Assembly: GCA_023382435.1 (NCBI GenBank)
Contig: JAHDVS010000019.1
Span: 1 to 43,228 of the forward strand
Reading direction: 5' to 3'
DNA length: 43,228 nucleotides
Origin: Thermoleophilia bacterium
GTDB taxonomy: Bacteria > Actinomycetota > Thermoleophilia > Gaiellales > Gaiellaceae
Shown: positions 10,861 through 23,023 of the stretch, in pieces
How the letters are laid out: the number at the start of each line of letters is the position of its first letter
Position numbering within the stretch: position 1 is the first letter of the stretch
Notes under the pieces: generated by a model
What the model was told of the DNA's origin: nothing
The model's input: only the letters and a program-made list of their open reading frames with translations
The model's database searches: none
Program-made: the position numbers and the translations under genes

Positions 10861-12032
10861 CAGCGCTCCGGGTCGTCCGACGCGAACACGGCCATCGTGG
10901 CCGTGAAGCCGTGCAGGAACGTCCGCCCGCCGACGGGCCCGATCTCGCCTCCGCAGAAGAAGCCCGCGAGCGCCGGCGCTCCCAGAGCCGCGCAGACGGC
11001 GTCGACGTCGTGGTCGGGCCCGCCGAACATGCCCGCGCCGCGCCCGTTGCACGTGAACAGGAGCGCCCCCGCGGGACGGCCCGGAAGCGTGTCGAGCGTC
11101 TCGTCGAGCGCCAGCCTGAGGTCGCGGTCGGCCGACTCCGCGTCGCGTGCGTGGAATCGCAGAGTCTGGCCGGTCCGCACCTGCTCGGCGATCGCGATCG
11201 CGCCGCTTTCCTCGTCTGCGCCGAGGATCCCCCGCATCAGGAAGTCGCCGCGCCCGTACTCGGGCCGGTTCTCGTCGATCACGAGCCCGGCGAGCAGGCC
11301 TCGTGCGGCGAGCAGGCGCTGATCCGGCAGCAGGCCGCCGATGACGCCGCGGAGCCGCTCGAGCGCGGGCATCCCGGCCAGCTCGAAGATGACGTTGCCC
11401 TCCGCGCGGGTGATCACCGAGTCCGGGCCGAGCGGCGCGCAGCCCTGGGAGACGACGGCCCGGACGGAGACCCCGGACAGCGCGACGCCGACGGCGCCGC
11501 CCTCCTCGAGTGCACCGTCGAGGAGAAGAGCCTGGCTTCCCGGCTCCCCTCCGCCGGTCGCGATGCCGCCGACTGCGGGGACGCCCGGATAGTCCGCGTT
11601 GAGCCGATCGAGCAGCCCCGTGGCCGGCAGCGAGAACGGGTCGAGGAGGAGCGTGACGAGATCTGCGCCGGCGATGTCCGGGAGGCCGTCCGGTGCCTCG
11701 CCGTCCCCGTCACCTGTCGGGGCGACATGGAAGGGAAGAAGCTGCGCGCCCGGAAGTGAGGCCGCCCAGAGCGCCACGGCCGGGCCGCTCTCGAGCTCTC
11801 GTCCGCGTCCGATCACTCCCTGGGCCACGCACCCGAGCAGATGCCGCGGCCCGAGCGTCTCGTGCACGGCCGCCGCCGCCTCGGCGGCCGTGGTGAGGTG
11901 GTCGGGCGTGAGGAACAGGAAGGCCAGGTCGGCGCTGCGGCCTGCGAGCCCGGCGGATACCTGCGCAGCCGCGTCCGCGACCGCGGCGGCGGTGATGCTC
12001 GCTGTGGCGAGCCCCGCCGCGACGCGCGTCAC
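10857..12032 (-). CDS. FIST-domain sensory protein (FIST_N + FIST_C)
   Basis: A 391-residue cytoplasmic protein. The N-terminal FIST domain starts with LAGRSADLAFLFLTPDHL and contains HLLGCVAQGVIGRGRE. The C-terminal FIST_C ends with GALLFTCNGRGAGMFGGPDHD and FFCGGEIGPVGGRTFLHGFTATMAVF. FIST is a predicted small-ligand sensory domain, usually fused to or neighbouring signalling proteins; here no output domain is attached. GTG 12032 overlaps the MarR stop (GTGA), so it is the last gene of an SDR-MarR-FIST operon. Pairing with a MarR regulator suggests both respond to the same small molecule (inference). Confidence 0.88.
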   Translation of the reverse strand: MTRVAAGLATASITAAAVADAAAQVSAGLAGRSADLAFLFLTPDHLTTAAEAAAAVHETLGPRHLLGCVAQGVIGRGRELESGPAVALWAASLPGAQLLPFHVAPTGDGDGEAPDGLPDIAGADLVTLLLDPFSLPATGLLDRLNADYPGVPAVGGIATGGGEPGSQALLLDGALEEGGAVGVALSGVSVRAVVSQGCAPLGPDSVITRAEGNVIFELAGMPALERLRGVIGGLLPDQRLLAARGLLAGLVIDENRPEYGRGDFLMRGILGADEESGAIAIAEQVRTGQTLRFHARDAESADRDLRLALDETLDTLPGRPAGALLFTCNGRGAGMFGGPDHDVDAVCAALGAPALAGFFCGGEIGPVGGRTFLHGFTATMAVFASDDPERW

Positions 12033-12451
12033 GATCGGCGCTGCCGACCGCCGGGCGCGGCGAAAAGCACTTCTAGGCGCTTGCGCTCCGGGCCGAGCTC
12101 GCGCACCGTCGCGGCGAGTCTGCGCTCCCCCTCGACGGTGAGGCTGAGGAAGACCACGCGGCCGTCGCGCGGGGACGGCTTCCGGTGGATCAGACCGGCG
12201 TCCTCGGCGCGCCGAACGAGCTCCGTGACTGTGCTCTGGGCGAGCTGGAGGCGCTCGGAGAGCGCCGTCACGGTCGAGTGCTCGCTCCCGTCGGGCGCGC
12301 CCTTGATCATCAGGAGCAGGCTGTAGCGCTGCGGGGTGAGGCTGTTGCCCCGGGCGGCGCGCTCGCTGACGCGCAGGAAGCGCCTGAGCTCCTCTCGCAG
12401 CTCCGCGGCCCGGCGGTACTCGTCGGGACGGGGTTCGTCTGCTCGTCTCAC
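12029..12451 (-). CDS. MarR-family transcriptional regulator
   Basis: A 140-residue winged-helix DNA-binding regulator, expected to act as a dimer repressor relieved by small aromatic ligands. Seen: helix-rich N-terminus ELREELRRFLRVSERAARG, then SLTPQRYSLLLMIKG, the recognition helix LSERLQLAQSTVTELVRRAEDAGL, and the wing HRKPSPRDGRVVFLSLTVEGERRL with the conserved DGR. GTG 12451 overlaps the SDR stop (GTGA), and its own stop overlaps the FIST start in the same way. Probable targets are its own operon promoter near 13223-13228. Confidence 0.92.
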   Translation of the reverse strand: MRRADEPRPDEYRRAAELREELRRFLRVSERAARGNSLTPQRYSLLLMIKGAPDGSEHSTVTALSERLQLAQSTVTELVRRAEDAGLIHRKPSPRDGRVVFLSLTVEGERRLAATVRELGPERKRLEVLFAAPGGRQRRS

Positions 12452-13215
12452 CTGTCTCGAGTGTAGCGGCCCGGTGGGCGTCGCGAGGCGAGCCGGGTGA
12501 CGGTGCCCGGGGCGAGCCCCTGGAGTGCCGTCGCTGCCCGGTAGTAGCCGGGCACGAAGATCTCGCCCCGGCCGCTGTCGAGAGCGGCCACGATCGCCGC
12601 GGCCACACGCTCGGCGGAGACGACGGCGTGGCGCCACACGGGGTGGTCGAGGAAGCGATCCTGCGGGAACCCCTCCGTGTCGGTCAGGCCGGGATTGACT
12701 GTGACGGTGCGGATCCCGCGCGGGGCCAGCTCGGCGCTGACGGTCCGGGAGAACGCCACCTGCGCGTGCTTCGAGGCCGAATAGGGGCCACTCGGGCCTC
12801 CCGAGACGGTGCCGGCGACCGAGGCCACGTTGACCACCGCGGACGGTGCTCCGGCCTCGAGCAGGGGCAGGAACGCGCGCAGGCACCAGACGCCGCCGAG
12901 GTAGTTGATCCGCATGACCTCCTCGATCCGCTCGGGCTCGAGCTCGAGGAATCCGGCCCGTCCGGGCACGCCCGCGTTGTTGACGAGCAGGTGAACGGCC
13001 GGATGCCGTTCCCCGATCCGCCGGGCGGCCGCCTCGACCGCAGCCCGATCGGCGACGTCGCAGACCTCGGCCTCGCAGCCGGTCTCTCCGGCCAGGAGCT
13101 CGAGCCGCTCGCGCCCGCGTGCGATCAGGACACAGTGGTAGGAGCGTTCCGCGAGACGGTGCGCGAGTGCCGCTCCGATGCCGCTCGAGCCCCCAGTGAC
13201 GACCGCGACCCGCAC
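12448..13215 (-). CDS. Short-chain dehydrogenase/reductase
   Basis: A 255-residue classical SDR oxidoreductase. Seen: nucleotide-binding TGGSSGIG (residues 7-14), LVNNAG near 78-82, catalytic Ser132, Tyr145 and Lys149 in PYSASKH, and the post-active-site VNPGLTDTEG. The basic residues IARGRERL after the second strand favour NADP(H). Substrate unknown. GTG 13215 has a TACCCT hexamer 7 bases upstream on the minus strand (13228 to 13223), so a leaderless transcript for the three-gene operon is likely. The basic C-terminal tail (ASRRPPGRYTRDR) is unusual for the family. Confidence 0.93.
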   Translation of the reverse strand: MRVAVVTGGSSGIGAALAHRLAERSYHCVLIARGRERLELLAGETGCEAEVCDVADRAAVEAAARRIGERHPAVHLLVNNAGVPGRAGFLELEPERIEEVMRINYLGGVWCLRAFLPLLEAGAPSAVVNVASVAGTVSGGPSGPYSASKHAQVAFSRTVSAELAPRGIRTVTVNPGLTDTEGFPQDRFLDHPVWRHAVVSAERVAAAIVAALDSGRGEIFVPGYYRAATALQGLAPGTVTRLASRRPPGRYTRDR

Positions 13216-13222
13216 CGGACGG

Positions 13223-13228
13223 AGGGTA
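13223..13228 (-). promoter_or_regulatory. -10 element (TACCCT) for the SDR-MarR-FIST operon
   Basis: TACCCT on the minus strand lies 7 bases upstream of the GTG at 13215, matching the leaderless pattern seen elsewhere in the window. Confidence 0.55.
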
Positions 13229-13243
13229 CCCGGCACGGATCGG

Positions 13244-13501
13244 TCAGTCGTCCGCGTCCTCGCCGTGCTCCTCGTCCTGCTCCCGCCCGTCGTCGTCGCT
13301 CCGCCCGGTGAGAGGGTCGGCGGGAGCTTCCGCCGGCGGCTCCGTGACCGCGACGGCGGCCCCGCGCGGCCTGAGCCTGCCGACGGGCTCGTCGCTCGTG
13401 TCCGAGACCGCGAGCAGGAGCAGGCTGGCCGCTGCCGCCGCTGTCGCCGCGAGAACGGCAACGGCGAGCAGGAGGGCGACGCGTCCTCTCGATCCGGTCA
13501 T
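13244..13501 (-). CDS. Small single-pass membrane protein with acidic C-terminal tail
   Basis: An 85-residue protein of unknown function. Seen: short basic start (MTGSRGRV), one hydrophobic helix of about 24 residues (8-32), a linker rich in Pro/Ala, and a C-terminal tail with many Asp and Glu (SDDDGREQDEEHGEDADD). By the positive-inside rule the tail should be extracytoplasmic. ATG 13501 overlaps the stop of the heme-protein gene (TGATG), which supports its reality as the last gene of a five-gene leftward operon. The tail resembles that of the first gene of the operon (15195-15545). An acidic tail could bind Ca or Fe ions, but this is inference. Confidence 0.65.
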   Translation of the reverse strand: MTGSRGRVALLLAVAVLAATAAAAASLLLLAVSDTSDEPVGRLRPRGAAVAVTEPPAEAPADPLTGRSDDDGREQDEEHGEDADD

Positions 13502-14070
13502 CAACCCGAGGGTACGCGTCGCGAGGCCGGCCGGGCACGCCTTGCCGGCGGCGCGAGGAGCCGCCAGCCGGCAGCGGCGCCGACCGCGCCCAGCGAGCCC
13601 GCATAGAGGGCGAGCGCCCAGCCGCGACCGCTGTCCGACCCCGCCATCAGCCCGTGCGCTGTCGCGGCTGCGAAGACCGCGTAGGCGCTCCAGTGCAGCC
13701 GCCGCCAGACCTTCGAGCCGATCAGCCGGCGGACCGAGAACGAGACTGCGACGAGGAGCGCGAGCTCCGCGGCGAGCACGCCGAGCCCGGTCCAGAACGG
13801 CCGGTACGACGCGAGCCCCGGAACGACCAGCGCCGGCCAGGAGATCGGCGAGGCGGCGTCGGCGGCGAGGGTGACGCCGTGGATAGCGACCGCGCCGACG
13901 CCGAGCAGGCTCAGGAACCGATGGAGGTCAATCGCGGTTGCCGGTCTGAGCGCCGCTCCGAACGGCCTCGCCTTCGCCGCGAGCCCGACCAGAACGGAGG
14001 CGGTGAGGAGCAGGTACGCGGTCAGGCCGCTGGCCCGCGCCAGCGTCCAGAAGGTCGGATCAGTCCTCAC
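13501..14070 (-). CDS. Ferric-reductase-like (MsrQ-type) transmembrane heme protein
   Basis: A 189-residue integral membrane protein with about 5-6 helices of the ferric reductase-like transmembrane domain family (PF01794). Seen: histidines suited to bind b-type heme in LHRFLSLLGVGAVAIHGVTL and in WRRLHWSAYAVFAAATAHGL, two per helix pair about 13 residues apart. No FAD/NAD-binding domain is attached, as in MsrQ and YedZ-like proteins, so it probably passes electrons across the membrane to a partner. GTG 14070 overlaps the ApbE stop (GTGA). ApbE next door suggests that a covalent flavoprotein partner exists, but none is visible in this window. Confidence 0.82.
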   Translation of the reverse strand: MRTDPTFWTLARASGLTAYLLLTASVLVGLAAKARPFGAALRPATAIDLHRFLSLLGVGAVAIHGVTLAADAASPISWPALVVPGLASYRPFWTGLGVLAAELALLVAVSFSVRRLIGSKVWRRLHWSAYAVFAAATAHGLMAGSDSGRGWALALYAGSLGAVGAAAGWRLLAPPARRARPASRRVPSG

Positions 14071-14945
14071 GCGAGACCTCCCGCGAGGACAGTGCGTCCG
14101 TCCAGCGTGACGAGGACGCAGGGGGAGCCGGTCGCGTCGCACCCGGCTGCCGCGCTGTCCGCCCCTGCGAGGAAGAGGCTCTTCGCCAGCACCTCCGCCT
14201 CCGCCGCCGTGCCGGCGGCGACCGTCACGCGCAGCAGATCGGAGGCGGCAGGCCGCCCGGTCGCCGGATCGATCAGGTGGTGGCGCTCCTCGTCGCCGCA
14301 GCGCCAGCGGCGGCGGTCGCGGCCCGACGTGGCTACTCCGCCCCGCCGGACCGCGAGTGTGACCGAGCCCGTTGGCGTCTCGACCGACACCGGCCACGTG
14401 CCGGCGCGCGGCACGCCGCGGACGGCGAGGTCGCCGCCAGCGTTGACGAGGCAGGGGCCGGCGGCGCGCAGGAGCGAGCACGCCCGATCGACCGCGTCAC
14501 CCTTCGCGATGCCGCCCAGGTCGAGCCTGACTCCCGGGTCGAGGCGGATCTCCCCGAGCTCGCGGTCAACATGAACACGTCCCTCGCAGCGGCCCGGCGG
14601 GTCGCTGCCGCGTGCCGGTACGGCCGCGACCTCGGAGAACGTGCGGTCGTAGCCCGCCGCGACGACCGCGTCGTGCACCGTCGGATCGAAGCGCCCGGCC
14701 GTCGAGGCTCTCCCGGCCAGCGCAAGCTCGACGACCCGGAGGAGGTCGGGGCCGGCGACGATCCGCCCCTCGCGGTTCAGCCGCGACAGCTCGGAGTCCG
14801 GGGAGAATCGGGAGAGCGTGGCCTCGAGCCGCCGGATCTCCGCCTCGGCCGCGTCGAGCGCTTCACGGGCCCGGGGCGGGACATCGCTCTCCACGAGGCA
14901 TTCCACCTCGGTACCCATCGCCTCGAACGTGTGGCGGAGCATCAC
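14067..14945 (-). CDS. apbE: FAD:protein FMN transferase (ApbE)
   Basis: Attaches FMN through a phosphoester to Ser/Thr of target flavoproteins, usually outside the membrane. Seen: MGTEVECLVES at the N-terminus, LSRFSPDSELSRLNREG, DLGGIAKGDAVDRA, LVNAGGDLAVRG, and the catalytic segment HHLIDPATGRPAAS. At 292 residues it is normal for the family. No lipoprotein signal peptide is visible, so it may act in the cytoplasm. Start GTG 14945 or ATG 14942 (GTGATG overlapping the upstream TGA); both give nearly the same protein. Known substrates carry a D-x-x-(S/T)-G-A-T site in an FMN-binding domain; no such site occurs in the neighbouring small proteins. Confidence 0.93.
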   Translation of the reverse strand: MMLRHTFEAMGTEVECLVESDVPPRAREALDAAEAEIRRLEATLSRFSPDSELSRLNREGRIVAGPDLLRVVELALAGRASTAGRFDPTVHDAVVAAGYDRTFSEVAAVPARGSDPPGRCEGRVHVDRELGEIRLDPGVRLDLGGIAKGDAVDRACSLLRAAGPCLVNAGGDLAVRGVPRAGTWPVSVETPTGSVTLAVRRGGVATSGRDRRRWRCGDEERHHLIDPATGRPAASDLLRVTVAAGTAAEAEVLAKSLFLAGADSAAAGCDATGSPCVLVTLDGRTVLAGGLA

Positions 14946-15194
14946 GAGCTCCTCGTGGCGGTCACCGGCGGGAGCGCCGTCAGCTGCACGGCGGGGGTCG
15001 CGTCTTCACCCGGGCGGGAGGTGGACGAGATCTTCGCCGCCAGGGACTGCAGGCGCTGCTCGCGGGCCGCGAGTGTATTGAGCCGTGGATCGCGAGACGG
15101 CCCTTGCTCCCGCCAGGGGTGGGCCGCGATCGCTGCCCAGAGAACGAAGAACACGGCGATCGTCGTCGCTAGCGCGTAGAGGCGGACGACCTGG

Positions 15195-15202
<8 letters not shown>
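14942..15202 (-). CDS. Small membrane protein with short coiled-coil segment
   Basis: An 86-residue protein of unknown function: one hydrophobic helix (about residues 7-27, VRLYALATTIAVFFVLWAAI) and a likely extracytoplasmic part with a heptad-like segment LNTLAAREQRLQSLAAKISS. The tail is rich in Thr/Pro/Ala. Its ATG at 15202 lies 8 bases inside the end of the upstream acidic-tailed gene, and its TGA overlaps the apbE start. Both overlaps support it as a real operon member. Its layout (helix, then a K/R-x-x-R-L-x-x-L segment) resembles that of the upstream gene, suggesting the two associate. Confidence 0.68.
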
Positions 15203-15545
<343 letters not shown>

Positions 15546-15615
15546 GTCGTCCCTCCGGAGTCGGGTTGCCACCGACGGTAAGCCGGGGCGGGGAAGGGGC
15601 GGGCCAGGCGCTCGC

Positions 15616-15650
15616 AAGGTTCGGCGAGGGATCGGTAAAGACTTCGCCAG
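15616..15650 (+). promoter_or_regulatory. Candidate response-regulator binding direct repeat
   Basis: Two related 13-base units, AAGGTTCGGCGAG (15616-15628) and AAGACTTCGCCAG (15638-15650), start 22 bases apart, or two helical turns. They lie in the 145-base divergent region between the acidic-tail operon and the OmpR-type regulator. OmpR-family regulators usually bind such tandem repeats. The second unit overlaps GTAAAGACTT, which also precedes the PAP2 gene and may itself be a -10, so the assignment is tentative. Confidence 0.3.
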
Positions 15651-15690
15651 GCGGCGGGCGAAGATCCGCGAGCCCGGCGAGAATGCCATC

Positions 15691-16350
15691 GTGAAGGTCC
15701 TGATCGTCGAAGACGAGGACTCGATCGCCGAGCCGCTCGCCCGCGGCCTCGAGCGGGAGGGCTTCCAGGTCGTGCGCGTGGCGACCGGCGGCGAGGCGCT
15801 GCGGGCGGCCGAGCCCGATGTCGTCCTGCTCGATCTGCGGCTGCCCGACATGGACGGCTTCGACGTCTGCCGCGAGCTGCGGGCGCGCTCGCGAGTGCCG
15901 GTGATCATGGTGACCGCCAAGGGGGAGGAGCTCGACCGCGTGCTCGGTCTCGAGCTCGGCGCGGACGACTACATCGTCAAGCCGTTCGGCTTCCGCGAGC
16001 TCGTTGCGCGGATCCGGGCGGTCACTCGGCGCGCCTCCGCACGGCCGGACGACCGGGGTCCGCTTCTCGCCGGAGCGCTCTCGATCGACGTGCGCGCGCG
16101 GCGGGCGCGGCTGGGCGAGCGCGAGCTCGAGCTGACTCTGAAGGAGTTCGACCTGCTCGCGCTGCTCGCGTCCGACCCCGGCACGGTCTTCAGCCGGCAG
16201 CGGATCCTCGAGGCGGTCTGGGACACCCACTGGTACGGGCACACGAAGACGATCGACGTCCACGTGGCGGCGCTGCGGCGCAAGCTCGGCGACCCACGCT
16301 GGATCGAGACGGTGCGCGGGGTCGGCTTCCGCCTCGTCGAGCCTGCCTGA
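15691..16350 (+). CDS. OmpR-family response regulator
   Basis: A 219-residue two-component transcription factor. Receiver domain 1-115: VLIVEDED acidic pocket, phosphoacceptor Asp48 in LLDLRLPDMDGFD, VTAKGEELDR, and DYIVKPFGFRELVARI with the conserved Lys. C-terminal winged helix about 130-219: LTLKEFDLLALLASDPGTVFSRQRIL and the recognition region KTIDVHVAALRRKLGD, ending VRGVGFRL. GTG 15691 was chosen because the receiver motif starts immediately; GAGAAT lies 6 bases before it. Its TGA overlaps the kinase ATG. Likely targets are the divergent operon at 15545-13244. Confidence 0.95.
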   Translation: MKVLIVEDEDSIAEPLARGLEREGFQVVRVATGGEALRAAEPDVVLLDLRLPDMDGFDVCRELRARSRVPVIMVTAKGEELDRVLGLELGADDYIVKPFGFRELVARIRAVTRRASARPDDRGPLLAGALSIDVRARRARLGERELELTLKEFDLLALLASDPGTVFSRQRILEAVWDTHWYGHTKTIDVHVAALRRKLGDPRWIETVRGVGFRLVEPA

Positions 16351-17771
16351 TGGGCCGCCGGCTGCTCGCGAGCTACCTGGCGCTGACCGCCTGCGTGCTC
16401 GCCGTTCTCGTCGTGCCGCTCGGGCTCTCCTACTCCCACAACCAGCGTCAGGACCTGACGGCGAAAGTGGAGCGCGACGCCGTCGTCCTGACGACGTTCG
16501 CGGAGGACCTGCTCGGAGGCTCGCCCGGCATCTCCCGGGCGAGCCTCGAGGAGATCGTGACCGGCTACGAGGAAGACACGGGCGCCCGGGTGGTAGTCGT
16601 GGACTCGGAGGGGCTGTCGATCGTCGACTCCGCCGACCCCGGCGGGTCATCCCGGTCGTTCGCGTCGCGTCCGGAGCTGGCGCGAGCGCTCGCGACGGGC
16701 GACGTCGTCGTCGGCGTCCGCCGCTCGGAGACGCTCGGCGCGGATCTCCTCTACGTCGCGGTTCCCGTCGCGTCGAGCGGCAGCGTGCACGGCGCCGTTC
16801 GGGTCACCTATCCGATGTCCGCCGTCCAGGCGCGCGTGCGGCGCTACTGGTTGATCCTCGCGGCGGTGTCCGCCGTCGTCCTCGCCGCCGTCGCCGCGGT
16901 CGGGATGCGGCTCGCGCTCTCGATCACGCGCCCACTCGCCGGGGTGGAGCGCGCCGCGACCGCGGCGGGAGCGGGCGATCTGACCGCGCGAGCGCCCGAG
17001 GCGCAGGGCCCGCCGGAGGTGCGCGCGCTCGCCGCGAGCTTCAACGAAACGGTCGGGAAGCTCGACGAGCTGATGCGCTCGCGCGAGGCGTTCGTGGCCG
17101 ACGCCTCACACCAGCTACGCACGCCGCTGGCGGCGCTTCGCCTCCGGCTCGAGAATCTCGAGTCAGCCGTCTCGCCGGACGGTCGGCCCGACCTCGAGGG
17201 CTCGCTCGCCGAGGTCGAGCGGCTGTCGCGGCTCGTCGATGGTCTACTCGCGCTCGCCCGCACCGACTCGACGACCGCGCATCCCCGCCCGATCGACGTG
17301 GGGACGATCGTGGCGGAGAGGCTCGAGGCCTGGTCACCGCTGGCCGAGGAGCAGCGGGTGGCGCTCTCCGGGGACGTCACGCGCGGCATGCGCGCGCTGG
17401 CGACGCCGGGGCGGCTCGAGCAGGTGCTCGACAACCTGCTCGCGAACGCGCTCGAGGCGTCCCCCGCGGGCGGGACGATCTCGGTTTCGGCCGCTCCGGC
17501 CGGCCGGAGCGCGGAGCTCCACGTCGTCGACGAAGGGCCGGGACTCGGCGAGGAGCAGCGGGCCCGGGCGTTCGACCGCTTCTGGCGCGCCGGCCCATCC
17601 GGGGGCGGCTCCGGCCTCGGGCTCGCGATCGTCGAGCGACTCGTCTCCTCAGACGGCGGCGAGGTCACGCTCAGCGCGGCCTCGACGGGCGGCCTCGACG
17701 CTCGCGTGCGGCTGCCCCTCGCGCCGGATGCGCCCCCTCGTTCTTCGCTGGCGGACCCGGGCGGGGCATGA
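16350..17771 (+). CDS. HAMP-containing sensor histidine kinase
   Basis: A 473-residue membrane kinase partner of the preceding regulator. TM1 at about residues 4-26, an extracytoplasmic sensor domain about 30-165 (contains GARVVVVDSEGLSIVDSAD, a PAS/Cache-like ligand fold), TM2 about 167-189, HAMP about 190-243, HisKA H-box VADASHQLRTPLAALRLRLE with His254, then HATPase_c with N-box LEQVLDNLLANALEAS, DEGPGLGEEQR, FDRFWRAG and GSGLGLAIVERLV. The ligand is unknown. TGATG overlap with the regulator gene indicates translational coupling. Confidence 0.95.
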   Translation: MGRRLLASYLALTACVLAVLVVPLGLSYSHNQRQDLTAKVERDAVVLTTFAEDLLGGSPGISRASLEEIVTGYEEDTGARVVVVDSEGLSIVDSADPGGSSRSFASRPELARALATGDVVVGVRRSETLGADLLYVAVPVASSGSVHGAVRVTYPMSAVQARVRRYWLILAAVSAVVLAAVAAVGMRLALSITRPLAGVERAATAAGAGDLTARAPEAQGPPEVRALAASFNETVGKLDELMRSREAFVADASHQLRTPLAALRLRLENLESAVSPDGRPDLEGSLAEVERLSRLVDGLLALARTDSTTAHPRPIDVGTIVAERLEAWSPLAEEQRVALSGDVTRGMRALATPGRLEQVLDNLLANALEASPAGGTISVSAAPAGRSAELHVVDEGPGLGEEQRARAFDRFWRAGPSGGGSGLGLAIVERLVSSDGGEVTLSAASTGGLDARVRLPLAPDAPPRSSLADPGGA

Positions 17772-18610: not shown

Positions 18611-20625
18611 ATGTCCGTCGTGGCCTCCGTCCGCCGGAAAGTGAGCCTGACGATCTCGAGCCCCTGAGGCGGCGACGTGTCGAGCAGCGCCCCGACCTGG
18701 AAGTGGAGCCTGTGCCAGCGGTTTCCGCGCAGCTCGACGACGAGCGTGACGCTCGGACCGACTTCGATGCGGCGGGGCTGCCCGCCGTCGACTCGCACGA
18801 TCGCCGGGATCGCCTCCGGTGCCGCGACCTCGATCTCCAGGTCGACCTCGCCGAAGACCCACAGGGGCGCGTCGCGCTCCTTCATCGTCCAGCCGTCCCA
18901 GCCCTCGCAGAACACGGGCGCCGAGCGGTCGGGCTCCGGTACCGGGGCGGCCTGCACCGGGCTCCCCGCTCGCGCGACCAGCGGGAACGCCCAGACGCGG
19001 CCGCCCCGCGCGGCCGAGCGGTAGCCCCGCCGCTGCAGGAGCTGCCACGCGAACCAGGCGCCCGGGCGGCCCGACTGCGCGAACGCGCCCGCGTGGAAGA
19101 GCACGGTGCCCACGCCGAGCGCGCGTAGCCGGCTCCAGTCGCCGGGCAGCGCGACGCCGCAGTTGAGGCGGTTCAGGTCCCAGAAGAAGCTGTAGGCGAC
19201 CGTCGGGGCGAGCGACGAGTAACCGCTCGGACGCTCCCGAGGCGCCTGCAGCGCGTAGTAGTGGTAGACGCTCCCGTGGTGGATGCCGGGCTCGAACAGG
19301 GGCAGCTCGACGATCCGCCCGGGGCTCGCCCCCCGCGCGAGCATCGCGTAGGCGCCGTTGTCCGGGTCGGCCGCGGTCGCGCGCAACGGCAGCACGAGCA
19401 GGTCGCCGGCGACGAGGAGCAGCGCGGCGGCGAAGGCTGCCCGCCGCCAGCGTGGCCCGGCCCGCTGCAGCGCCCAAGTCGAGGCGAGCGCGGCGAGCGC
19501 GGCGAGTGCGAGGCACGCGATCGGCACCAGCCGCCCGGGCACGCGGGGGTAGCCGAACCCCGGGACGTAGCGCCAGAGCAGCTCGTACGTCGGCAGGTGT
19601 GTCCCGAGCGCCAGCAGGAGCGGCAGCAGCGCGGCGAGACCGAGGAGCGCAGCGAGCGCTGGCCGGCGGCGCCAGGCGAGCACGACGCCGGCCAGCGCGG
19701 CCAGCGGCGTCAACCAGCCGACGAAGACGTACTGCTCGAGGCCCCTGTCGCCGCGGAAGCGGTCGACGAGGTCGAGCCAACCCGCCTGGAACATCCGCAC
19801 CTGGTCGAGCGTGCGGCCACCCGCCGCGGCCGACTCCAGGATCACCGCCTCCCGGATCAGGAGACCGAGTGCGACCGACGCCCCCGCGGCGGCGACCAGC
19901 CAGAAGAACGGTGCGCGCCGGAAGCGAAGCGCCCCGTAGGCGAGGGCCAGCGGCACCGCCCCGAGCGCGAGATGCACCTGGCCGGAGAGCGGGATCGAGA
20001 CGAGCGACCCGGCCGCGAGCGCCCCCCACGCCTGGCGGCTTGCTGGGCCCGTGGCGACCCGGGCGCGCTCGTATGCCCAGAGCGAGAGCGGCAGGAAGAC
20101 CGCCGTCCAGCCGAGCAGGTGGCCGCCGCTCTGGGCGAGCCGGTAGGGGGCGAGCGCGAACGCGAGCCCGCCGATCGCCGCCGCGGCCGGCGGCAGCCGC
20201 AGCAGCGCCAGCCAGCCATAGGTGGCGAGGCCGGCGGCGACGATCGTCGCGAGCAGCAGCAGGTTCCAGGCGACGACGGGCCCGAACGCGGCCTCGAGCG
20301 GCCAGAACGGGAGCCCGAACGGCCAGCCCGCCAGGCTGAGCTGGTCGCCCGCGAGCGGCTGGAACGTGTACGGGTCGCGCCAGGGGGCCGCTCCGCGCTC
20401 GAGCTGGTGCCCGACCAGCCAGAAGCGGTAGACGGACTGGAGGTGATCGCCGCCGGCGGCCTCGCCGAAGCCCGGAGCTCCGCCGGCGACGAACGCCGAG
20501 CGGAAGCTGCCGATCCCCGGGGACGTGGCGGCCGCGGCCGCGGCCGCGTAGAGCGCTACGAGAGCGAGCGGGCGGCGGCGAGCAAGACGTCGAAGTCGGG
20601 CACCTCGCTCGGCTCGTACGCCCAT
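18598..20625 (-). CDS. Large polytopic membrane protein, GT-C glycosyltransferase-like
   Basis: A 675-residue protein with roughly 11-12 hydrophobic helices in residues 20-420 and a soluble, probably extracytoplasmic C-terminal part of about 250 residues with beta-rich segments. Seen: after the first helix, GEAAGGDHLQSVYRFWLVG carries an acidic/His loop in the place where GT-C enzymes hold catalytic acids; FALAPYRLAQSGGHLLGW is also suggestive of YfhO-like or GT-C proteins. No definite family is recognised. The ATG at 20625 lies 70 bases inside the end of the peroxiredoxin gene; no later start in this frame precedes the first helix, so real overlap is likely. Confidence 0.72.
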   Translation of the reverse strand: MGVRAERGARLRRLARRRPLALVALYAAAAAAATSPGIGSFRSAFVAGGAPGFGEAAGGDHLQSVYRFWLVGHQLERGAAPWRDPYTFQPLAGDQLSLAGWPFGLPFWPLEAAFGPVVAWNLLLLATIVAAGLATYGWLALLRLPPAAAAIGGLAFALAPYRLAQSGGHLLGWTAVFLPLSLWAYERARVATGPASRQAWGALAAGSLVSIPLSGQVHLALGAVPLALAYGALRFRRAPFFWLVAAAGASVALGLLIREAVILESAAAGGRTLDQVRMFQAGWLDLVDRFRGDRGLEQYVFVGWLTPLAALAGVVLAWRRRPALAALLGLAALLPLLLALGTHLPTYELLWRYVPGFGYPRVPGRLVPIACLALAALAALASTWALQRAGPRWRRAAFAAALLLVAGDLLVLPLRATAADPDNGAYAMLARGASPGRIVELPLFEPGIHHGSVYHYYALQAPRERPSGYSSLAPTVAYSFFWDLNRLNCGVALPGDWSRLRALGVGTVLFHAGAFAQSGRPGAWFAWQLLQRRGYRSAARGGRVWAFPLVARAGSPVQAAPVPEPDRSAPVFCEGWDGWTMKERDAPLWVFGEVDLEIEVAAPEAIPAIVRVDGGQPRRIEVGPSVTLVVELRGNRWHRLHFQVGALLDTSPPQGLEIVRLTFRRTEATTDMAAP

Positions 20626-21023
20626 GTTCCGCGGATGATGCCGTCTCCGGCCACGAGGAAGGCGCTCCTCGTCGGGATCTCGCGCATGCCGCGGTACTCG
20701 TGACCGACCCCGAAGCCGCGCACCGCGTCCCCGTTCCAGTCGGACAAGAGCGGGAACGTCAGGTCGAGCACCTGGGTCCAGGCGGCGTGCGACCAGGGGC
20801 TGTCGCGGGAGATCCCGAACACCCGCACGCCCGCCTCGTCGAACTCGCCCTTCCTGTCACGCAGGATCGTCAGCTCTTCCTGTCAGGTGCCGGTCCAGTC
20901 GTAGAGGTAGAAGAGAAGCAGGAACGGCCCGTCCGCGGCGAGCTCCGCGAGCGTCACGCCCTCCGCGTCCGCCGCGCTCCTCCACACCCGCGCCGCCGGC
21001 ACCCGCTCGCCAGGCCCGATCAT
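20556..21023 (-). CDS. Probable selenocysteine-containing AhpE-type peroxiredoxin (in-frame TGA at codon 47)
   Basis: Reads as 155 residues from ATG 21023 to TAG 20556 if the TGA at 20885-20883 is decoded as selenocysteine. The peptide around it is FYLYDWTGT-U-QEELTILRD. In AhpE-type peroxiredoxins the same place reads F-T-G-x-C-Q-x-E-L, with the peroxidatic Cys at the TGA position and the conserved Thr three residues before (Thr44). Downstream features fit: ISRDSPWSHAAW, FPLLSDW, and the conserved Arg119 in PTRSAFLV. The protein has no cysteine, so it would be a one-Sec enzyme reducing peroxides. A hairpin at SECIS distance follows the TGA. The 90-residue ORF from GTG 20828 is only the C-terminal part. 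A Cys-to-stop mutation (pseudogene) is the alternative. Confidence 0.8.
20847..20874 (-). promoter_or_regulatory. Candidate bacterial SECIS hairpin after the in-frame TGA
   Basis: On the coding strand TCCTG (20866-20862), loop CGTGA (20861-20857) and CAGGA (20856-20852) form a 5-base-pair hairpin. Its loop begins 22 bases after the TGA and has G at the second position, as bacterial SECIS loops usually have G among the first two bases. A lower helix GCT/GGC (20874-20872 with 20849-20847) can extend it across an internal loop. CAGGA directly after the TGA can compete for TCCTG. Confidence 0.5.
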
Positions 21024-21032
21024 GCGCACCGG

Positions 21033-21054
21033 CGGCGGCCGCTAGGGGCCGCCG
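21033..21054. terminator. Stem-loop at the ridA stop, before the peroxiredoxin
   Basis: CGGCGGCC and GGCCGCCG (8 base pairs) enclose a 6-base loop that carries the ridA TAG stop. It sits 10 bases before the peroxiredoxin ATG on the minus strand. It could be a partial terminator or could limit ribosome entry to the downstream gene, which has no visible Shine-Dalgarno. Confidence 0.4.
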
Positions 21055-21428
21055 ACGACGGCCTCGACCTCGATCTCGACCCGCCAGCGCGGGTCGAGCA
21101 GGCCAGCGAGCACCGTCGTGTTGACCGGGCGGACGTTGGCGAACGCCTCCCCGTGCGCCCTGGCGAAGCCGTCGAAGTCCTCCGGGTCGACCAGGAAGAC
21201 TCGGGTGCGGACGACGTCCTGGAGGCCGGACCCGGCTTCGGCCAGCGCCGTGGCGATGATCGCGAGGCAGCGCTTCGACTGCCCGTACGCGTCGGAGGGC
21301 GGGTCGGCGCCGTCGGGCATGACCGGGGCCGTGCCGGCGACGAAGACCCGGTCGCCCACCCTGACCGCCCGGCAGTAGCCGGCGATCGCCTCGTAGGGCG
21401 ATCCGGAGAAGACCCGTTGGCGTTGCAC
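21042..21428 (-). CDS. RidA/YjgF family protein
   Basis: A 128-residue protein of the RidA (YjgF/UK114) family; founding members deaminate reactive enamine/imine intermediates from PLP enzymes. Seen: GYCRAVRVGDRVFVAGTAP, QSKRCLAIIATALAEAGSGLQDVVRTRVFLVD with the conserved Arg, and a C-terminus WRVEIEVEAVVG matching the trimer-interface strand. Some RidA subgroups lack the deaminase Arg; here VVRTRVFLVD retains it. GTG 21428 chosen because MQRQRVFSGSPYEA begins the domain. It is the first gene of a leftward unit with the peroxiredoxin 18 bases downstream. Confidence 0.9.
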   Translation of the reverse strand: MQRQRVFSGSPYEAIAGYCRAVRVGDRVFVAGTAPVMPDGADPPSDAYGQSKRCLAIIATALAEAGSGLQDVVRTRVFLVDPEDFDGFARAHGEAFANVRPVNTTVLAGLLDPRWRVEIEVEAVVGGP

Positions 21429-22705: not shown

Positions 22706-23023
22706 CTACGCGGCCACGAGCCCGAGATTGCGCTCGAGCATCTGCTTGGGCTGCGCGCCGACCGCGGCGGCGGCCGGCTGGCCGCCCTCGAACAGGATGA
22801 TCGTGGGAATGCTCATCACGCCGTAGCGGCGAGCGAGGTCGGGCTCCTCGTCGATGTTCACCTTGACGACCTTCAGCTCCGTGCGCTCCTCCGCGATCCG
22901 GTCGAGCACAGGCGCCACGGCTCGGCACGGCCCGCACCATTCGGCCCAGAAATCGACGATCACCGGCTGCTCGCTGGCGAGCACCTCCGAGTCGAACGTG
23001 GACGTTGTCACTGTGGTAGTCAA
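22706..23023 (-). CDS. trxA: Thioredoxin
   Basis: A 105-residue canonical thioredoxin, cytoplasmic dithiol reductant. Seen: VIVDFWAEWCGPCRAVAPVL with Cys30 and Cys33, KVVKVNIDEEPDLARRYGV, and the cis-Pro SIPTIILFEGG. Starts with TTG at 23023: GGAGG lies 5 bases before it, which favours TTG over the in-frame GTG at 23011. Possible reductant for the peroxiredoxin about 1.7 kb away, though no operon link exists. Divergent from ileS. Confidence 0.96.
   Translation of the reverse strand: MTTTVTTSTFDSEVLASEQPVIVDFWAEWCGPCRAVAPVLDRIAEERTELKVVKVNIDEEPDLARRYGVMSIPTIILFEGGQPAAAAVGAQPKQMLERNLGLVAA

Follow-up and report, generated by a model that had tools for sequence, protein, structure and literature searches.

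A predicted selenocysteine peroxiredoxin, with UGA at the peroxidatic position, is the prevailing form of its family in the Gaiellales

The main finding of this work was the identification, in a window of 43,228 nucleotides (the whole stretch of DNA that was analysed, contig JAHDVS010000019.1 of a Thermoleophilia bacterium of the Gaiellaceae), of a gene that very probably encodes a selenocysteine (1-Sec) peroxiredoxin. The reading frame, the selenocysteine machinery, the conserved UGA, an RNA hairpin and the fold family were established at the sequence level, and from these we infer both the insertion of selenocysteine and the peroxidase activity of the product, which likely works as a 1-Sec peroxidase and resembles AhpE and Bcp4 in fold. 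An earlier sequence-only reading of this DNA had proposed a frame running from ATG 21023 through a single TGA (20885-20883) to TAG 20556, with peroxiredoxin sequence on both sides. Both points were reproduced: translation of the minus-strand frame gave one in-frame TGA, at codon 47, in the context YDWTGT-U-QEEL, and the match to the Pfam family AhpC-TSA (PF00578), obtained with codon 47 read as Cys, spans it (residues 17-131, E = 7e-24, 84.6 bits against a cut-off of 26). As that reading had also claimed, there is no Cys in the frame besides U47, and an open reading frame list made without recoding contains a 90-residue fragment alone (20556-20828), the one expected from automatic annotation. 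Thr44, at position -3 relative to codon 47, and Arg119 are both present, and the conservation supposed for the latter proved complete, the residue being invariant among 35 aligned relatives. When solved peroxiredoxins in the PDB were matched by sequence, Aeropyrum Bcp came best (1e-17), and Sulfolobus Bcp4 and Mycobacterium tuberculosis AhpE were also matched. The coordinates of the features are given in Table 1.

Table 1. Features of the predicted selenoprotein locus, in window positions.
Feature	Position	Strand	Basis and remarks
Sec-peroxiredoxin coding sequence	20556..21023	minus	155 codons, ATG 21023 to TAG 20558-20556; Pfam AhpC-TSA match and homologues
UGA codon 47, predicted selenocysteine at the peroxidatic position	20883..20885	minus	aligned TGA or Cys in homologues; helix start in the model
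Predicted bacterial SECIS hairpin, UCCUG-CGUGA-CAGGA	20852..20866	minus	loop 20861-20857; 5 bp; invariant core in TGA genes
RidA/YjgF-like gene (presumed family)	21042..21420	minus	directly upstream, 18 nt before the ATG; 5' limit approximate

The UGA is conserved across the order. Among 129 Gaiellales genomes, 101 contained a match at E <= 1e-10, a number that includes remote Cys paralogues. At the exact aligned codon, the close homologues carried TGA in 72 copies (44-64% identical), far beyond chance, and TGC or TGT in 7, which agrees with the claim that the TGA stands in place of the catalytic Cys, three residues past the Thr. This alignment at codon 47, which had been proposed as a check together with a search for unrelated stops, revealed no other stop inside the gene in the homologues; one row has a TAG, which precedes the TGA by 37 codons and falls in the N-terminal region of variable starts. 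A second set of relatives, overlapping the first and composed mostly of MAGs from Actinomycetota, Thermoleophilia, Gaiellaceae, yielded 66 TGA loci and 9 Cys loci; the assignment of the order to Gaiellales follows the names of these relatives. At E <= 1e-22, a search of 399 genomes from the class found the gene within the order alone. The TGA carriers are about 70 relatives from soil and sediment, separately assembled. Contrary to the expectation that such a protein would be unusual in this lineage, the Sec form is therefore the rule in the Gaiellales. One genome (G122) has both a Cys and a Sec copy of the family (L084 and L086), the Cys copy with a TAA within the aligned stretch by one search. 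A divergent peroxiredoxin-like selenoprotein candidate was also observed in two genomes (L097 in G084 and L098 in G082), with TGA in GGU-QxQL and without T/S at -3; its relatives L099 and L100 have Cys at the TGA site.

A near-fixed hairpin, CUCCUG-CGUGA-CAGGAG, is common to the 72 TGA genes, whereas the Cys genes are without it. Its 5-nt loop, CGUGA, begins 21 nt past the UGA, and the stem comprises 5 bp in the window copy and 6-7 bp in most relatives. The bacterial SECIS has been modelled as a stem-loop with a loop of 3-9 nt, a G at loop position 1 or 2, a distance of 16-37 nt from the UGA and a folding energy no higher than -7.5 kcal/mol (PMC13188914). The window hairpin follows the rules for loop, guanosine (G second) and spacing; its folding energy is -6.1 kcal/mol for the tight 22 nt and -12.8 for 47 nt, with values of -8.7 to -12.4 kcal/mol in four sampled relatives. 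It is the weakest among the copies folded singly, with a folding z-score of -0.97, and since it is not unusually stable alone, its support is comparative. At the protein level the hairpin reads LLRDR, a peptide that the Cys homologues produce with ordinary codons. The first Arg is CGT in 66 of 69 TGA genes, as against 32 of the 691 Arg codons elsewhere in those genes (5%), and the second is AGG in 68 of 69, as against 27 of 691 (4%); in the Cys genes the codons here are CGC, CGG and, in one case, AGG. We consider these frozen codons the strongest single evidence for the selenoprotein, since the RNA sequence is preserved solely in genes whose UGA needs decoding. Pairing was found in 94% of cells at the hairpin, compared with 31-58% in neighbouring registers. 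Compensation was seen at the outer pair only, as a double change from G-C to C-G in five sequences, and RNAalifold returned the 5-bp core alone, without compensatory change inside it; the core pairs hardly vary, and covariation there is therefore weak.

A search for selA, selB, selD and tRNA-Sec (selC), also suggested with the sequence-only reading, found the complete set in the genome to which the window belongs (2.73 Mb, 96% complete). One contig (C17) carries SelA (E 8.5e-130), SelB including the wing domain (E 9e-15) and a tRNA-Sec scoring 63.8 bits, whose anticodon ARAGORN gives as TCA; SelD is on another (C4, E 3.5e-97). Furthermore, contig C25 bears a gene for the alpha subunit of formate dehydrogenase (FdhA) with a TGA in frame at CNRT-U-H. 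A strong hairpin, its loop GGUCUG, comes after this codon, and with the peroxiredoxin the genome thus holds at least two selenoprotein genes. At this FdhA locus (L183, G000 contig C25, 20758-22629) the profile match begins at position 50; some 3 kb further downstream, L188 matches profile positions 1-54, which may point to a split or rearranged gene. Past the tRNA-Sec gene, contig C17 (L010) carries a run of further genes at 11280-17610, which we take to be a hydrogenase-4/formate hydrogenlyase-type membrane complex, plausibly the partner of the FdhA selenoprotein. In the order, SelA was found in 23 of 25 TGA genomes of at least 90% completeness, and over all 129 genomes in 57 of 73 with the TGA peroxiredoxin versus 25 of 56 without it (Fisher p = 1e-4, weakened by the incompleteness of the MAGs and uncorrected for kinship). 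In eleven TGA genomes, mostly incomplete MAGs, none of selA, the SelB wing domain and a strong tRNA-Sec was found. The tRNA-Sec was counted at 58 bits or more and 91-92 nt among 27 re-checked genomes, since weaker, shorter hits (about 49-53 bits, 85-89 nt) turn up in genomes lacking selA or SelB too. In a 5-contig genome (G062), where a close Sec-peroxiredoxin was not found, selA is matched in two adjoining pieces (contig C1, 1901216-1902255), which suggests a frameshift.

In-gene stop codons mostly originate from nonsense mutation or assembly error, and the gene might be no more than a Cys peroxiredoxin gene damaged in this way, a pseudogene. Given that 72 separately assembled homologues have TGA at this codon, that no further stop lies in the gene and that the protein is constrained alike on both sides of the TGA (dN/dS 0.54 before it versus 0.49 after), such an origin appears extremely improbable; the identical TGA in about 70 separate assemblies rules out sequencing error, and by these comparisons pseudogene, sequencing error and simple truncation can be considered excluded for practical purposes. 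The UGA might otherwise be a true stop between a conserved 46-residue leader and a separate C-terminal protein of 90 amino acids, with the hairpin regulating re-initiation at GTG 20828, where the mechanical open reading frame indeed begins. However, this split would break the modelled fold at the catalytic loop, the Cys homologues form one continuous protein over the site, and the hairpin accompanies TGA alone and conforms to the SECIS rules, all of which makes a leader peptide highly improbable. Decoding of the UGA as another residue, for instance Trp, by a reassigned code or a near-cognate tRNA can be given hardly any weight, because homologues without TGA always have Cys and never Trp, and because the genome has a tRNA-Sec and Sec enzymes, as well as another UGA gene, which has the Sec site of FdhA.

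A rival of another kind accepts selenocysteine insertion and differs from our interpretation in function only: the protein may be a selenoprotein that is not chiefly a peroxidase, such as a selenol sensor or a reductase on a peroxiredoxin scaffold. It draws on the loss of a signature residue. The Pro of the PxxxT/SxxC motif, which shields the peroxidatic Cys, is missing at position -7 of the window copy, where Leu40 stands. The 72 Gaiellales Sec copies have Leu in 69 cases, Ile in 1 and Pro in 2, and 7 Sec copies elsewhere in the phylum have Val or Thr, whereas among Cys homologues at a greater distance 28 of 30 have Pro. Leu is also found in 5 of the 7 Gaiellales Cys copies, as would be expected if these descended from Sec forms. 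Since the Sec copies form one clade, the Pro loss reflects a single event or a handful of them, and does not establish a rule. Against a sensor or reductase, S/T at -3 is retained in 72 of 72 Gaiellales Sec copies, along with a mostly Glu +3 position and the invariant Arg119, and the fold is fully that of a peroxiredoxin, so we regard this function as unlikely. In the AlphaFold2 model (mean pLDDT 96.2), residue 47 lies in the first turn of helix 45-63, and the best fold match was Sulfolobus Bcp4 (Z 24.1, 1.6 A), followed by M. tuberculosis AhpE (Z 22.6, 1.9 A). The earlier description as AhpE-like was thus a fair one; that reading had mentioned neither the hairpin nor the Sec-to-Cys replacements nor the missing Pro. 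Bcp4 and AhpE rank first by fold and a resolving Cys is absent, and the protein may belong to the AhpE/Bcp-type 1-Cys group; given its fold and domain, we retain it among the peroxiredoxins despite the altered motif.

A tree of 86 proteins placed the Gaiellales family in a single group, in which 69 rows are Sec and 7 are Cys. The Cys rows are nested among the Sec rows at four separate places, and the simplest reading of this topology suggests at least four replacements of Sec by Cys. Genomes with Cys copies retain SelA or SelB, and therefore these replacements did not result from losing the machinery. A phylum-wide sample contained further Sec copies (L202-L208) in other actinobacterial families, with TGA at the same site and different hairpins; two of them (L207 and L208) have AGUU-loop hairpins whose stems are unlike each other. 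The Sec rows all group into a single, modestly supported clade (92/84), and one origin of Sec is possible on this tree, not proven. We tentatively hypothesize, with considerable doubt, that the gene belongs to an old actinobacterial Sec-peroxiredoxin lineage in which Sec came with the loss of the active-site Pro, and that Cys returned on at least four occasions, with the machinery kept and Leu mostly kept, the Pro being needed to shield a thiolate and not a selenolate.

In the mechanism that we propose, SelA, with selenophosphate from SelD, would form Sec-tRNA(Sec) with anticodon UCA, and SelB would bind the hairpin, which starts about 17 nt past the UGA of codon 47, and deliver Sec, after which the ribosome would read on to the TAG at 20556. 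Sec47, at the helix start of a thioredoxin-like fold and with Thr44 and Arg119 as its expected active-site partners, would be oxidized by H2O2, alkyl peroxides or peroxynitrite to the selenenic acid. Because a second Cys is absent, an outside thiol or a thioredoxin-type partner must reduce the enzyme. Mycothiol was rejected as this reductant, as the genome search for its ligase MshC gave nothing over the cut-off, and so was the product of the thioredoxin gene at 22706-23023, which is near the peroxiredoxin in just 3 of 76 relatives. The upstream gene, presumably RidA/YjgF-like, is possibly co-transcribed with the peroxiredoxin; in 33 of the 76 relatives' loci a homologue of it precedes the peroxiredoxin in the same orientation, usually further off, often at about 1.2 kb.

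When such genes are annotated as truncated fragments, an antioxidant enzyme of Gaiellales from soil and sediment is overlooked. The many Sec genes, together with four apparently independent Cys replacements, constitute a natural experiment on what Sec buys a peroxiredoxin, and this gene set could show whether only thiol enzymes need the active-site Pro. A SECIS of near-fixed sequence may also be useful for studying its recognition by the SelB of Gaiellales.

Selenocysteine peroxiredoxins are an established family, reported as 12 bacterial proteins (PMC1794560) and as 43 genes from the Sargasso Sea (PMC1088965), and their PxxxTxxU motif has been termed highly conserved (PMC13188914). Our literature search found no paper tying Gaiellales or Thermoleophilia to selenoproteins. 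Like the known forms (the PrxU type and the COG1225-type of the Sargasso Sea), the Gaiellales proteins have the predicted peroxidatic Sec in T/SxxU and a SECIS just 3' of the UGA; unlike them, they are near-fixed in an order and not scattered. When compared with the published motif, nearly all have Leu for the Pro of PxxxTxxU. The window protein scores 42.3 bits against the PrxU equivalog (NF040737), whose curated cut-off is 270. Since the family is established and this protein lies far below the PrxU cut-off, we consider it a new clade-wide Sec-peroxiredoxin, possibly with a variant active site. The 1-Cys AhpE of M. tuberculosis shares its fold over 150 residues (33% identity), its length, the catalytic Arg and the lack of a resolving Cys, but has Cys for Sec and is without a SECIS. 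Bcp4 of Sulfolobus solfataricus is the best structural match (28% identity), and Bcp4 and the Aeropyrum Bcp-PrxQ are the best PDB sequence matches, although both are thiol enzymes and not selenoproteins. Finally, the UGA/SelB logic is shared with E. coli-type FdhA and its SECIS, as in the genome's own FdhA with its GGUCUG-loop hairpin, whereas the peroxiredoxin hairpin has another loop, the 5-nt CGUGA.
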